From: a bacterium
GTDB lineage: Bacteria; CSSED10-310; JAJRTK01
Length of the DNA: 27,908 nt
Direction of reading: 5' to 3'
NCBI GenBank assembly: GCA_024278345.1
Contig: JAJRTK010000313.1
Span: 1-27,908, forward strand
Shown here: positions 10,811 through 27,908 of the stretch, piece after piece
How the letters are laid out: every line of letters begins with the position of its first letter
Numbering within the stretch: position 1 is the stretch's first letter
Position numbers and translations under genes: made by a program
The notes under the pieces: model-generated
Seen by the model: only the letters and a program-made list of their open reading frames with translations
Told to the model about the DNA's origin: nothing
The model's database searches: none

Positions 10811-12457
10811 TCAACCATCAGTCATGCCCAGCAAGGCATCCTTTTGAGCTTCCAGACTCTGAACAAGGAGGTCCATGAGGTCCTTTTTCCTGGTCTCCAT
10901 GGCGTTTATCAGCGTTTGTCGCTCAGCCTGGAGCTTTTCCTCCAGTTTGCTCGCAGCCTCCTCTTCCCGGTTCAGGCCAGCTTGTGCCATCGCCTCTTTT
11001 TCCGACTCCAACCTGTTCTCCACCAAGAGCAAAAGTCTTGCCTCGGATTGACTCAACCGCTCCTCTACCTGCTCCACAAAGTCGCGACACAGCTCATCGA
11101 CCTTAGTGTTCGCCCCTGTCTCAAACTGGCCCAATTTCTCCTGGAAGAGTGCCAGCAGTTCATGGCGATGTTCCACAAGCCGCGACGTGAGTTGCTCTCG
11201 CTCCTCTTCCAGTTGTTGACGCACCGCTGAAGCCGTGGTTCCTTTCAACTCGGCCAGCTCGCTTTCAAGTTTATCCTGAACCTTTTGTTCCAGTTTGGTT
11301 CCATGCTCATCAAGCCGCCGCGAAACCGAGGCCTTCTCTTCTTCCAGGCAGTCCCGAAACATCGTTTCTAAGAACGCCGAGTTCTCCCGCAACTGTTCCG
11401 ACAACTCTTGCCGCCACTCGTTCAGGCACTGCTCGCCGCTTGCCGAAAGAAGGGTCAGCCGTTCTTCCAAATCCTGACACCGCTGGCCGAGACTCAAAGC
11501 CGTGGTTTCGGCCTTTTCGCCCATTTGGATCGCACGTTCTTCCAAATCCTGACACCGCTGGCCGAGACTCAAAGCCGTGGTTTCGGCCTTTTCGCCCATT
11601 TGGATCGCGCGTTCTTCCAAATCCTGACACCGCTGGCCGAGACTCAAAGCCGTGGTTTCGGCCTTTTCGCCCATTTGGACAAGCTTTCCATCTAGAGCAT
11701 CTAGTCGCTCCGTCGCATGATGCTCGGCGGCTCTTACACGGTTGTCCTGGCGTGCTTCCGAGAGTTTCACGAGATCCTTCACGTTGGCGGTCAGCTCCGC
11801 ACCCGACTCAAGCATCCGCGCTTCAATGGTCGATCCATGCTCGCCCAGCCGACGCTCCACGGAGCGGAAATATTCTCCGAATTTTTCTTCCACCAAGCCG
11901 ATCTGGTGGCCGGACCACTCCTCAAAGCGCGTCGCCGCACCTTCATCGATGGTCCGCGCGTGGTTGGAAAGAAACTCTTCTATCGTCCGCCGCTGCCCAA
12001 CGAGATTTGAACGGACCTTCTCCTCGACCTCTCCCAGAAGATCCCCATGCTCCTTGGCCACTCTGGCCATCTGTCTTTCCAATGCTTGACGGGTCTTGGT
12101 TTCTAGCTTCTTTCGAGCTTCCTCCCCCTCGCGCATCACGTTGGCCCGCTGCTCCTCCATCCGGCGCTCGGCCTCGGCCAAGAATTCTCCGCGCCGAATC
12201 TCAAAGGCAGCGTCGTAGTTTCGTAGCTTCTCCTCCAGATCGCGCCCCAGTCTCTGGCGGAAAACCTCCAAATCCTCCTGACCGCGATCCAAGCGCTCTT
12301 CGAATCGACGGCGTAGATAATCCTCTGATCGCGCCTCGGAACTCACCACCTGCTCGGATAACCACGATTTCAGACCGCGGATTAACACAAGGGGCAACAC
12401 TACGGCCAATACAGCCGTCACGCCGACACCAACTGAAAGCCAATCGACGAAAGACAC
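10811..12457 (-). CDS. Membrane-anchored long coiled-coil protein
   Basis: The GTG start at 12457 has a GGAGG site 8 bases upstream. The 548-residue protein has one membrane helix at about 9-27 and is otherwise a continuous run of Glu/Lys/Arg/Leu-rich heptads, so it should form a rod reaching into the cytoplasm or periplasm. Near residues 260-333 lie three nearly identical 25-residue units (QMGEKAETTALSLGQRCQDL plus LEERAI-type residues). The overall look (EEKLRNYDAAFEIRRGEFLA) is like DNA-recombination RmuC or apolipoprotein-like rods, but no catalytic domain is present. It follows the Sel1 gene by 68 bases on the same strand. Function is unknown; scaffold is a guess. Confidence 0.85.
   Translation of the reverse strand: MSFVDWLSVGVGVTAVLAVVLPLVLIRGLKSWLSEQVVSSEARSEDYLRRRFEERLDRGQEDLEVFRQRLGRDLEEKLRNYDAAFEIRRGEFLAEAERRMEEQRANVMREGEEARKKLETKTRQALERQMARVAKEHGDLLGEVEEKVRSNLVGQRRTIEEFLSNHARTIDEGAATRFEEWSGHQIGLVEEKFGEYFRSVERRLGEHGSTIEARMLESGAELTANVKDLVKLSEARQDNRVRAAEHHATERLDALDGKLVQMGEKAETTALSLGQRCQDLEERAIQMGEKAETTALSLGQRCQDLEERAIQMGEKAETTALSLGQRCQDLEERLTLLSASGEQCLNEWRQELSEQLRENSAFLETMFRDCLEEEKASVSRRLDEHGTKLEQKVQDKLESELAELKGTTASAVRQQLEEEREQLTSRLVEHRHELLALFQEKLGQFETGANTKVDELCRDFVEQVEERLSQSEARLLLLVENRLESEKEAMAQAGLNREEEAASKLEEKLQAERQTLINAMETRKKDLMDLLVQSLEAQKDALLGMTDG
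11461..11679 (-). repeat. 75-bp tandem repeat (about 3 copies) inside the coiled-coil gene
   Basis: Copies begin at 11461, 11536 and 11611. The first two full copies differ at one base (GCAC versus GCGC); the third departs from the others only after 11679. The period of 75 bases is 25 codons, so the reading frame is kept. Confidence 0.92.
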
Positions 12458-23267: not shown

Positions 23268-23416
23268 GACTACCTCGCTACGATCCGTGATGAGAATTCC
23301 GGGATAACCGTGCCAAACGGGAACAAACACCAGCGTTCTTTCGTTCTTGAGAGGACAAAGCGGAACGGGACTCAGTCATCGGTGGTGCCTTCGGCAGCTC
23401 TCGCTGTCGCTCGGAC

Positions 23417-23648
23417 CCGGCCACCCCCCCAAAAACGCGTAGCGAAAAAAAATGTGGGTCCAGGGAGCTAGCTCCCTGGCGAGGTCCTGAACCGGAGCGT
23501 AGCGTGAGCGAAGCGGAGATCATGACCGCAGGTCCATAACCAGCGCTCCTGGCGGAGGTCCGGAGGCCGCCTCCGGCGGGTTCCAGGGCTGGAAGCCCTG
23601 GCGCTGGGCCGGAGATTCACTGAGTGGCCGGAAACGACGGACGAGGCC
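23417..23648 (-). repeat. Palindrome-rich dispersed repeat, copy R3
   Basis: On the minus strand the order of blocks matches R1: GGCCTCG...CCGGCCAC, then CCAGGGCTTCCAGCCCTGG, GGAGGCGGCCTCC, CCAGGGAGCTAGCTCCCTGG, GACCCACAT and GGGTGGCCGG. An extra inner segment with GGAGCGTAGCGTGAGCGAAG (plus strand) is present. It lies upstream of the thioredoxin promoter. Confidence 0.75.
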
Positions 23649-24203: not shown

Positions 24204-24367
24204 CCAAAACAGCCTCGCGATCCAATGCCTATGTTTGCTGGCCCGATGGGAGATACCCAAGGATGCACGACTGAGTGCTCATTGACGGGGCATGAGGCGT
24301 GTGATACGGGTTTGTGAAATTTTTAACAAGTTTCGCATGAAGGCAACATCAAGCGGCAGGTGGATTC

Positions 24368-24583
24368 GTGGATCGAGATGCCCGGAAGATGTGGAAAAAA
24401 CTCGGGGGAGTGGGTTCTCTAGGCTTTTCGATGCCCTTGTCTATTGCTCTTGGCGTACTGCTGGGAACCTGGTTGGATGGCCTTTTTTCCACGAATCCGG
24501 TGCTCACACTGGTCTTTTTGCTCCTGGGAATTGCCGCGGCATTCCTCACTCTTTACCGCGAAGTGACACGAGACCAAGATTGA
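24368..24583 (+). CDS. atpZ: F0F1-ATP synthase assembly protein AtpZ-like
   Basis: The 71-residue protein has two membrane helices (about 18-35 and 42-62) with a short loop, the layout of the AtpZ/AtpI small-protein family (ATPase_gene1). The sequence LGFSMPLSIALGVLLGTWLD fits its conserved first helix. A GTG at 24368 is taken as start with AGGTGG upstream; ATG at 24389 is an alternative. Its stop overlaps the TTG start of the next gene, indicating translational coupling. Relatives are thought to help c-ring assembly or bring in divalent cations. Confidence 0.85.
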   Translation: MDRDARKMWKKLGGVGSLGFSMPLSIALGVLLGTWLDGLFSTNPVLTLVFLLLGIAAAFLTLYREVTRDQD

Positions 24584-24978
24584 AGGCTTCTAGGATCTGG
24601 AAAACCCTGCTCGTCCTGAGTAGCGGCATATTGGTTGTGTGCCTGATTTTCTGTTGGCTATTTTGGAACACTCAAGTCGCTCTGGGAGTGCTGCTGGGAG
24701 GAGTTTTGACAATCGGTAATTTCTATCTCTTGGGCCAAGCCTTGAAACACGTTCTAACTCCTGAGGCGAGCCGGAAAACCCCCAAGCGTTTTATTCTCTT
24801 TTTCCTATTGAAATTTGGACTGTTTTTTGCGGTTTTTTCCGTGGCACTGAGATCGGGACAAGTTGATCTTTTGGGGCTTTTTCTTGGCTGTTCAGTGGTC
24901 GTGGCTTCGATTTTCGTCATTGTGCCCGTGACGAGTCTGTTTGGATATCAAGACGACGAGGATTTCGTTCATGGCTGA
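24580..24978 (+). CDS. atpI: ATP synthase subunit I-like protein (AtpI)
   Basis: The frame begins at a TTG at 24580 inside the stop of atpZ (TTGA overlap) and gives 132 residues; the open frame upstream of this belongs to other reading. Four membrane helices are seen, with ALGVLLGGVLTIGNFYLLGQ and FFLLKFGLFFAVFSVAL characteristic of the ATP-synt_I family. It overlaps the atpB start by 8 bases. AtpI assists assembly of the F0 c-ring in the membrane. Confidence 0.85.
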   Translation: MKASRIWKTLLVLSSGILVVCLIFCWLFWNTQVALGVLLGGVLTIGNFYLLGQALKHVLTPEASRKTPKRFILFFLLKFGLFFAVFSVALRSGQVDLLGLFLGCSVVVASIFVIVPVTSLFGYQDDEDFVHG

Positions 24979-25723
24979 GCATATTTTGCCCTGGACTAGC
25001 TTGTTGAACTGGCTCATCGGGAAACCGATTGCGGCGCTACTCGATCTGCTGGGCTTGCCTTACCCCCAAGAAATGCCTATCGCCAATCATCTGGTGGTGA
25101 CAGGTATTCTGGTGGCCGGGCTCTTGTGGTTCGCTTCCTGGCTGAGAAACCGCCTCGAAGAAGTCCCCAACCACTGGAGCCAGCATCTGGTGTAGCTCAT
25201 CGTTGGTGGCCTTGAGGGTCTACTCGATGAAATGATCGGGCCAAAAGGGAAGAAGTACCTTGGCTTGGTGGGCACGCTCGCGCTCTACATCGCCCTGGCA
25301 AACCTGGTGGGGCTGCTCCCGACATTGTCGTCTCCAACGGCCAGTCCCAACACAACTTTAGCTCTATCGCTGACGGTGTTTTTCTACTACCATTGGGAGG
25401 GGCTCCGATCACAAGGGGTTCTCAAGTATCTGCGACATTTCGCGGGACCGCATCTGGAGTGGTATATGGCCCCGCTCAATGCCTTGTTCTTCGTCATTGA
25501 GATTCTAAGTCATACCTCCCGCATCATGTCTTTGGCCGTTCGGTTGTTCGGCAACATCTTCGGGGAGGATATGGTCATCATCATCTTGTTTATGCTCCTT
25601 CCCTATTTTGCGCCGATCCCGATCATGGGGCTTGCGATAATCACAAGCCTCGTCCAGTCGTTCATCTTCGTAGCTCTCACGATGGTCTATCTTGCGGGCG
25701 CCGTCGCCGTGGAAGAACATTGA
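24971..25723 (+). CDS. atpB: ATP synthase subunit a, interrupted by an in-frame TAG
   Basis: From the ATG at 24971 the first 74 codons encode the N terminus of subunit a (MAEHILPWTS to VPNHWSQHLV), then comes TAG at 25193-25195. The same frame continues without shift for 175 codons, to 25723. The rest is normal: GLEGLLDEMIGPKGKKYLGL, helices of the proton path, and SRIMSLAVRLFGN with the essential arginine (codon 191). The TAG falls where relatives have glutamate (E. coli AIELVIGF), so a single G-to-T change would explain it. Other genes here use TAG as a true stop. Options are a nonsense mutation, a sequencing error, readthrough, or re-initiation at ATG 25232 to make a split subunit. Confidence 0.9.
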
Positions 25724-25765: not shown

Positions 25766-26140
25766 ATGAAGAAAGTGATGTACTTTTTCCTAGCTCTTGG
25801 AGCTATTGCCTTGTTCGCGGACCCTGCCCTGGCCCAGGAAATGGTGACGGAAGCGTCTGGAGCGGCCGGGGGAGCAACTAAGGTCTGGTATTTTGTCGCC
25901 ATCGTGGTGACTTGTGGCTTTTCCATGGGCATCGCCGCCTCTTTTTGCGCCCTCGGCCAATCCAAGGCCATCGTGGCTGCTCTTGAGGGGATAGCACGCC
26001 AGCCGAGCGCCGCAAACAAACTGTTCAACCCGATGATTATCGGCCTCGCGCTCATTGAGTCGCTGGCGATTTATGTGCTGCTCATAGCCCTCATCCTGTT
26101 CTTCATGAAACCGTTCGATCCAACGGTCATCGGCCTTTAG
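25766..26140 (+). CDS. atpE: ATP synthase subunit c with N-terminal leader
   Basis: An excellent AAGGAGG site eight bases upstream fixes the start at 25766. The 124-residue protein has a signal-like leader (MKKVMYFFLALGAIALFADP, ALAQ), followed by the two c-subunit helices. The polar loop is ARQP (77-80) and the ion-binding glutamate is E98 in LIESLAIY. Q65, S99 and Y103 lie at the spacings of Q32, S66 and Y70 of the sodium-binding Ilyobacter c-ring, but the position of its T67 is leucine here. Leader-bearing c subunits occur in several deltaproteobacteria. It forms the rotating ring in the membrane. A strong terminator follows. Confidence 0.93.
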   Translation: MKKVMYFFLALGAIALFADPALAQEMVTEASGAAGGATKVWYFVAIVVTCGFSMGIAASFCALGQSKAIVAALEGIARQPSAANKLFNPMIIGLALIESLAIYVLLIALILFFMKPFDPTVIGL

Positions 26141-26585: not shown

Positions 26586-26826
26586 GCCATCCGCGTAAGG
26601 CGGGACATTTCGAGGATTGTGGAATTGCGAGCGTCCGGGCAGCGCCTCGCGCTGCTCGACGGGCGTCCGGGGACTCTCCCCGGTCCCCAGGCAGGGCTTT
26701 GCCCCGCACCCACCAGGGAGTTCACTCCCTGGACCCACATCATTGTAAGGTGGGCGTCGCTTATGCTCGGCATCTCGCTGCGCTCGGCACCGCGCTTTTG
26801 GCGGGTGGCCGAAAGATGACCAAGTC
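26586..26826 (+). repeat. Palindrome-rich dispersed repeat, copy R4
   Basis: The left part, CATCCGCGTAAGGCGGGACA and onward, matches R2; the right end, GGTGGCCG then ATGACC, matches R1. The core has GCAGGGCTTTGCCCCGC, CCAGGGAGTTCACTCCCTGG and GACCCACAT, with an added GCTCGGCATCTCGCTGCGCT block. It fills the gap between two convergent genes. Confidence 0.75.
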
Positions 26827-26834
26827 ACTTGGCT

Positions 26835-27908
26835 CTAGAATTGGATAGACAAACCAGCGAAAAGATCCTCGCGGCCACCGGCAAGTAACTCCACAGCCAT
26901 TTGGCGAAAAATAGGCTGACTCAATAGTTCAGGCGAAACTGAAATCTTGTAGTGATTTGCGCCGCGAAGCAGGTCTTCCTCCAGGAGTTGAGTCAAGCTA
27001 CCTCTCGCAATGCCTATCTTAATCTTGTCCTGGTTGTACAACTTGATGTCCTGAAGGATCAATCGAGCCAGCTTCTTGGCATCCGCATGAGGATCGGCAG
27101 CTTTTTTCTCTGCCTCGTTCCCCGCTTCCTCCGGTGACCAAACATGATCGTCAAGATCGTTTTCCGAAACCACGGCGCCGGATTCAAACTCCCAGACAAG
27201 CCCGCCGTCAGAAGAAACTGACAAGGAAGTAGCTTCCTGAGGTTCTTCCTCAGATGGAGCGGGTACTTCGAAGACCGGTGGTTCCCCTTCGGCCTCAGGT
27301 TCCACCATGAAATCCGCAGGATATCGCTCCGCCGCCAGTGTGGGAAGGGATTTCTCGACCGCTTCCGGGCCCGGTCCAAAGGTTATCTGTTGGTCATCCT
27401 CCGCGGAACTGACTGGCATTCCCAGCGGTGAATCGAAGTCGATGTGATCATCCTCCGCGGAACTGACTGGCATTCCCAGCGGTGAATCGAAGTCGATGGA
27501 GACCTCATCATCGGACGAGGAAGTGAAAGATGGGGCGCGATCCCATCCTCCGTTGTCTTGACCCTCCGCCGCTTCAAGCTCGGCAAGAGCACTGAGAGAA
27601 AAAGATACGTCTTTCGGCTCGGAAGTGTCCTCCGTGCCAAAGGACGGGGTCGGCAAACTCGATGCCGGCATGCCAAAATCAATCACATCCTCCAAGCTCG
27701 GACTAGCGGATGGATCTTGAGGGGTTTCCTCGAACTCGATGATATCCTCAACCGCCAAAGTCGCTTCTGAGCTCGGACTAGCGGATGGATCTTGAGGGGT
27801 TTCCTCGAACTCGATGATATCCTCAACCGCCAAAGTCGCTTCTGAGCTCGGACTAGCGGATGGATCTTGAGGGGTTTCCTCGAACTCGATGATATCCTCA
27901 ACCGCCAA
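26835..27908 (-). CDS. Acidic repeat protein, C-terminal part (gene continues beyond the window)
   Basis: The frame is open to the right edge, so the N terminus and start are missing; 357 residues are visible. From the edge inward come copies of a 25-residue acidic unit (DIIEFEETPQDPSASP core), two copies of an 18-residue unit (DFDSPLGMPVSSAEDD), a Pro/Glu-rich segment, and a folded C-terminal domain of about 95 residues (DPHADAKKLARLILQDIKLY, then a helical end). That domain, with its AKKLARLIL-x-DIKLYN start, is familiar from the ends of Deltaproteobacteria and Acidobacteria proteins that carry zinc-ribbon or other interaction domains, but I know no function. The long acidic part is probably disordered. 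The stop at 26835 is TAG. Confidence 0.8.
   Translation of the reverse strand: MAVEDIIEFEETPQDPSASPSSEATLAVEDIIEFEETPQDPSASPSSEATLAVEDIIEFEETPQDPSASPSLEDVIDFGMPASSLPTPSFGTEDTSEPKDVSFSLSALAELEAAEGQDNGGWDRAPSFTSSSDDEVSIDFDSPLGMPVSSAEDDHIDFDSPLGMPVSSAEDDQQITFGPGPEAVEKSLPTLAAERYPADFMVEPEAEGEPPVFEVPAPSEEEPQEATSLSVSSDGGLVWEFESGAVVSENDLDDHVWSPEEAGNEAEKKAADPHADAKKLARLILQDIKLYNQDKIKIGIARGSLTQLLEEDLLRGANHYKISVSPELLSQPIFRQMAVELLAGGREDLFAGLSIQF
27394..27498 (-). repeat. 54-bp tandem duplication in the acidic repeat gene
   Basis: TCATCCTCCGCGGAACTGAC starts at 27394 and 27448; the copies agree over at least 51 bases. The period is 18 codons. Confidence 0.9.
27696..27908 (-). repeat. 75-bp exact tandem repeat reaching the window edge
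   Basis: Units begin at 27696, 27771 and 27846 (GCTCGGACTAGCGGATGGAT). The first two are identical over all 75 bases, and the third is identical as far as it is visible. The period is 25 codons and more units may lie outside the window. Confidence 0.95.

Follow-up and report, generated by a model that had tools for sequence, protein, structure and literature searches.

F-type ATP synthase subunit a (AtpB, PF00119) is the family against which the gene considered here is best compared, and the two share the entire domain, the arginine-containing RLFGN segment and the atpI-atpB-atpE gene order. The present gene differs by one in-frame TAG, found at a conserved glutamate. Systems in which UAG has been reassigned or directs the insertion of pyrrolysine also share a feature with it, namely, a UAG within the frame of a critical gene; in the genome considered here, by contrast, UAG still terminates translation, RF1 is present, and neither a decoding tRNA nor PylS was found. 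Finally, when more than 250,000 genomes were screened for alternative codes, some apparent stop codon reassignments that lacked a suppressor tRNA were traced to contamination or to pseudogenes containing in-frame stops (PMC8629427). Of the literature sought on stop codons in binned genomes, naturally split atpB genes and uncB amber alleles, only this report proved useful. Lone stops arising from pseudogenes or imperfect assemblies resemble those described below in being scattered, one base away from a sense codon, of mixed types and unaccompanied by a suppressor tRNA, with the difference that here, a housekeeping gene is affected.

The window, namely, the whole stretch of DNA analyzed (27,908 nucleotides), corresponds to contig C239 of a metagenome-type bin comprising 550 contigs and 6.06 Mb, with an estimated completeness of 87.9%. 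On its forward strand, the atpB frame runs from an ATG at position 24971 to a TGA at positions 25721-25723 (24971-25723; 250 codons and the TGA) and is interrupted once, by a TAG at positions 25193-25195. As such, subunit a is not encoded by a single uninterrupted frame. The initial annotation had placed an amber codon at codon 75 of atpB and had described the frame as being conserved on both sides, including the essential arginine, and examination of the sequence bore out each of these points. The TAG is in frame and is the sole internal stop, as compared to nine and five stops in the other two forward frames across the same stretch. When atpB was read through the TAG, a single match to ATP-synt_A (PF00119) was obtained that spans the stop (residues 43-241; E-value 3e-44), the NCBIfam model TIGR01131 scored above its cut-off, and the sequence SLAVRLFGN could be aligned to the RLFGN segment in chains of solved structure, such that the essential arginine is present. 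Taken alone, the 74-residue N-terminal piece (24971-25195, forward strand) did not match any NCBIfam family. The ATG at position 25232, previously suggested as a point of restart, is indeed in frame, corresponds to codon 88 and is the first such codon past the stop; the 163-codon remainder that it opens (25232-25723, forward strand) contains the arginine helix.

The neighboring genes were considered next to those encoding the remainder of the enzyme. Upstream on the same strand lies an atpI-like gene encoding an ATP-synt_I domain (24292-24978), the true start of which may be further downstream, while atpE, encoding subunit c (25766-26140, forward strand), is intact, preceded by AAGGAGG and ends in TAG. 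The genes encoding the F1 beta and gamma subunits are likewise intact; for alpha, the frame remains open over the stretch examined on contig C180. The second atpB that the initial annotation had raised as a possibility did not appear in a search of the assembly, which contains neither another DNA copy nor a strain variant of the gene; atpB is thus present in a single copy. Since no V-type ATPase was detected in the genome, a true atpB null would cost the cell the only ATP synthase found. Were the TAG both real and absolute, the sole ATP synthase detected would be without a proton channel.

The identity of the residue replaced by the stop was addressed by aligning AtpB with 55 relatives, taken both from contigs of named genomes and from whole genomes within and outside the phylum. 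At the column corresponding to codon 75, glutamate was found in 51 sequences (encoded by GAG in 34 and by GAA in 17), aspartate in three and methionine in one. TAG is one base away from a glutamate codon. Among the matches listed from 46 of 60 relatives, only the present genome contains an internal stop in atpB. The nearest named relatives, namely, Candidatus Aminicenantes and other Acidobacteriota bins, share no more than 55% identity, meaning that the comparison includes no very close relative. The codons lying between the TAG and the ATG at position 25232 still encode the conserved stretch of the family, as would be expected of a gene that was whole until very recently or that is still whole.

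General reassignment of TAG is not supported. TAG was already known to end the FHA, atpE and zinc-ribbon genes, which was confirmed, and in a 1.32 Mb sample, the 591 long frames considered ended in TGA (336), TAG (164) or TAA (91), making TAG, at 28%, an ordinary terminator rather than an absent or rare one. RF1 is encoded without an internal stop and scored over the cut-off (491.7 bits), such that the UAG termination machinery is normal. In the search for an amber suppressor or pyrrolysine tRNA, no CUA or UUA anticodon was found among the tRNAs called at 49 matches, with the proviso that in a bin that is 87.9% complete, one may be missing; some ordinary anticodons were also absent from this set, as expected of an incomplete bin. 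Pyrrolysine decoding is similarly unsupported, as PylS had no match over the cut-off in the genome, with the two weak matches obtained probably corresponding to other synthetases. The earlier view that general reassignment is unlikely is thus sustained by TAG terminator use, RF1, the tRNA set and the absence of PylS. It is, moreover, highly improbable that the lineage tolerates UAG and UAA within the frames of a set of conserved genes, its only atpB included, with full-length proteins being made through inefficient RF1-dependent termination or a suppressor tRNA.

That the sequence comes from a bin matters greatly to the interpretation of a lone stop. The genome was scanned for stops flanked in the same frame by coding-like sequence on both sides, with candidates being checked against Pfam with X in place of the stop. 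This placed stops within a kinase on contig C306 (TAA), a kinase on contig C57 (TAG), a NUDIX protein (TAA) and an APH-type phosphotransferase (TAG), with a further TAG, near the domain edge, being found in a YbjN protein. Comparison of paralogues added one more lone TAG, on contig C94; most of the matches obtained in this manner were discarded, as they derived from an interspersed non-coding repeat. When genome-wide searches were performed that read through stops, four of 129 Pkinase matches proved to be interrupted, each by one stop (two TAG and two TAA; contigs C57, C306, C179, and C414), two of these four kinases having already been counted in the scan, as did one of 65 ABC_tran matches (TAG). 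In all, about ten conserved genes in the bin, atpB included, contain a lone in-frame stop (seven TAG, three TAA, and no TGA); those other than atpB lie on contigs C57, C306, C101, C5, C64, C94, C179, C414 and C262. Lone stops are thus limited neither to TAG nor to atpB. Random one-base changes from the codons of this genome would be predicted to yield TAG in 50%, TAA in 27% and TGA in 23% of cases, a mix to which that observed is close, with the lack of TGA among ten stops falling slightly below expectation (P = 0.08).

As controls, the Pkinase and ABC_tran matches listed in searches over six and seven genomes of the same phylum were considered, with each list ending at an estimated 150 or so rows, and no stops were found in the rows from relatives. 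For the kinases, stops were present in two of the 38 matches listed from this bin and in none of approximately 112 from relatives (Fisher P = 0.06); pooling the listed kinase, ABC and atpB matches yielded a Fisher P of 0.004, a value to be read loosely, as it includes atpB, the gene that prompted the comparison. The excess of lone stops over relatives rests on few events. Its direction fits a bin in which sequence errors, or else real lesions, are more numerous than in its relatives. Genes such as those encoding kinases and ABC proteins can be true pseudogenes, such that the other lone stops need not all be errors.

Because the sequence is the consensus of a fragmented bin with similar lone stops elsewhere, TAG is most likely not the working reading of codon 75. 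The TAG is a single-base nonsense difference at the conserved-glutamate codon of an otherwise intact atpB, with the working gene in the living population most likely reading otherwise. We infer that an error, either of the consensus or from low coverage, or a base from a minority strain would be the cause, rather than a fixed null allele; that is, a lone nonsense base probably entered the consensus sequence of the bin by one of these routes. That the gene affected is a housekeeping one favors error over a true pseudogene. Of the explanations offered by the initial annotation, assembly error and recent mutation offer the best fit, given the lone TAA and TAG stops in other conserved genes of the bin, while readthrough, suppression and a split subunit gained no positive support.

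A true nonsense mutation, recently fixed in the sampled strain, would leave subunit a lost or present in traces, and the cell would live without Fo-driven ATP synthesis. The T is, after all, present in the assembled sequence, and relaxed selection in the strain would give other lone stops of the sort seen in the bin. Still, the remainder of atpB shows no decay, nor do atpI, atpE or the F1 genes, and the ATP synthase affected is the only one found, making such an allele rather unlikely. Suppression, or leaky readthrough of the UAG by a near-cognate tRNA, would instead provide some full-length subunit a. The C following the UAG is consistent with this, as is a hairpin directly 3' of the stop in an 80-base fold (z = -2.6 relative to shuffled sequences), although the hairpin is gone from a 101-base fold (z = -0.3). 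The restriction of the lone stops in the bin to TAG and TAA also points this way, albeit weakly (P = 0.08). Readthrough must, however, be reconciled with the lack of CUA and UUA anticodons among the tRNAs called, the intact RF1, the absence of PylS, the share of long frames ending in TAG, and a stop kept in no relative among the matches listed, and is accordingly considered quite improbable. Were the TAG real and read through in this essential subunit of the proton channel, a housekeeping gene would offer a striking example of nonsense being tolerated.

Division of subunit a into two pieces that assemble together, one of 74 residues containing the first membrane helix and one of 163 residues starting at the ATG at position 25232, is very improbable. 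That ATG lies in frame 36 bases beyond the stop, and the piece it would initiate retains the conserved helices and the arginine. Yet the sole Shine-Dalgarno-like 4-mer, GAGG, is found at a spacing of 14 from the ATG, and a signal as good occurs by chance at 18% of internal in-frame ATGs. Moreover, the codons between the TAG and the ATG continue to encode conserved family sequence, and no split relative was seen among the matches listed. As for the preferred reading, namely, a lone nonsense base in the consensus, it carries the caution that recoding should not be invoked for a lone stop in a fragmented bin until the background of lone stops in that bin has been considered.

Several other features were noted in the course of these efforts. 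On the minus strand of contig C257 (stretch L153, 2588-2944), a cluster was found in which a circularly permuted tRNA-like sequence lies between a Met(cat)-like tRNA and a tRNA-like sequence with a two-base anticodon. The last was considered as a suppressor and rejected, as its loop does not read UAG. The permuted sequence is ordered T-arm, 3' acceptor (CGCGTCC), 5' acceptor (GGACGCG), D-arm and anticodon arm, weakly matches the Rfam family YrlA (29 bits, under the gathering score) and is found near a 753-amino-acid ORF on the same strand, the product of which we take to be slipin-like. Within the window, an interspersed non-coding repeat is found at about 26640-26830, 1-300, 888-1160, and 23278-23523; it comprises CCAGGGAG...CTCCCTGG together with GGGCAAAGCCCTG-like palindromes, and numerous other contigs of the bin contain related copies. 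At positions 11310-11700, within a minus-strand gene encoding a coiled-coil protein (10811-12457), AIQMGEKAETTALSLGQRCQDLEER is repeated in tandem, in about three nearly identical copies, while AVEDIIEFEETPQDPSASPSSEATL units recur at 27600-27908 on the minus strand, in a gene cut off by the end of the contig.
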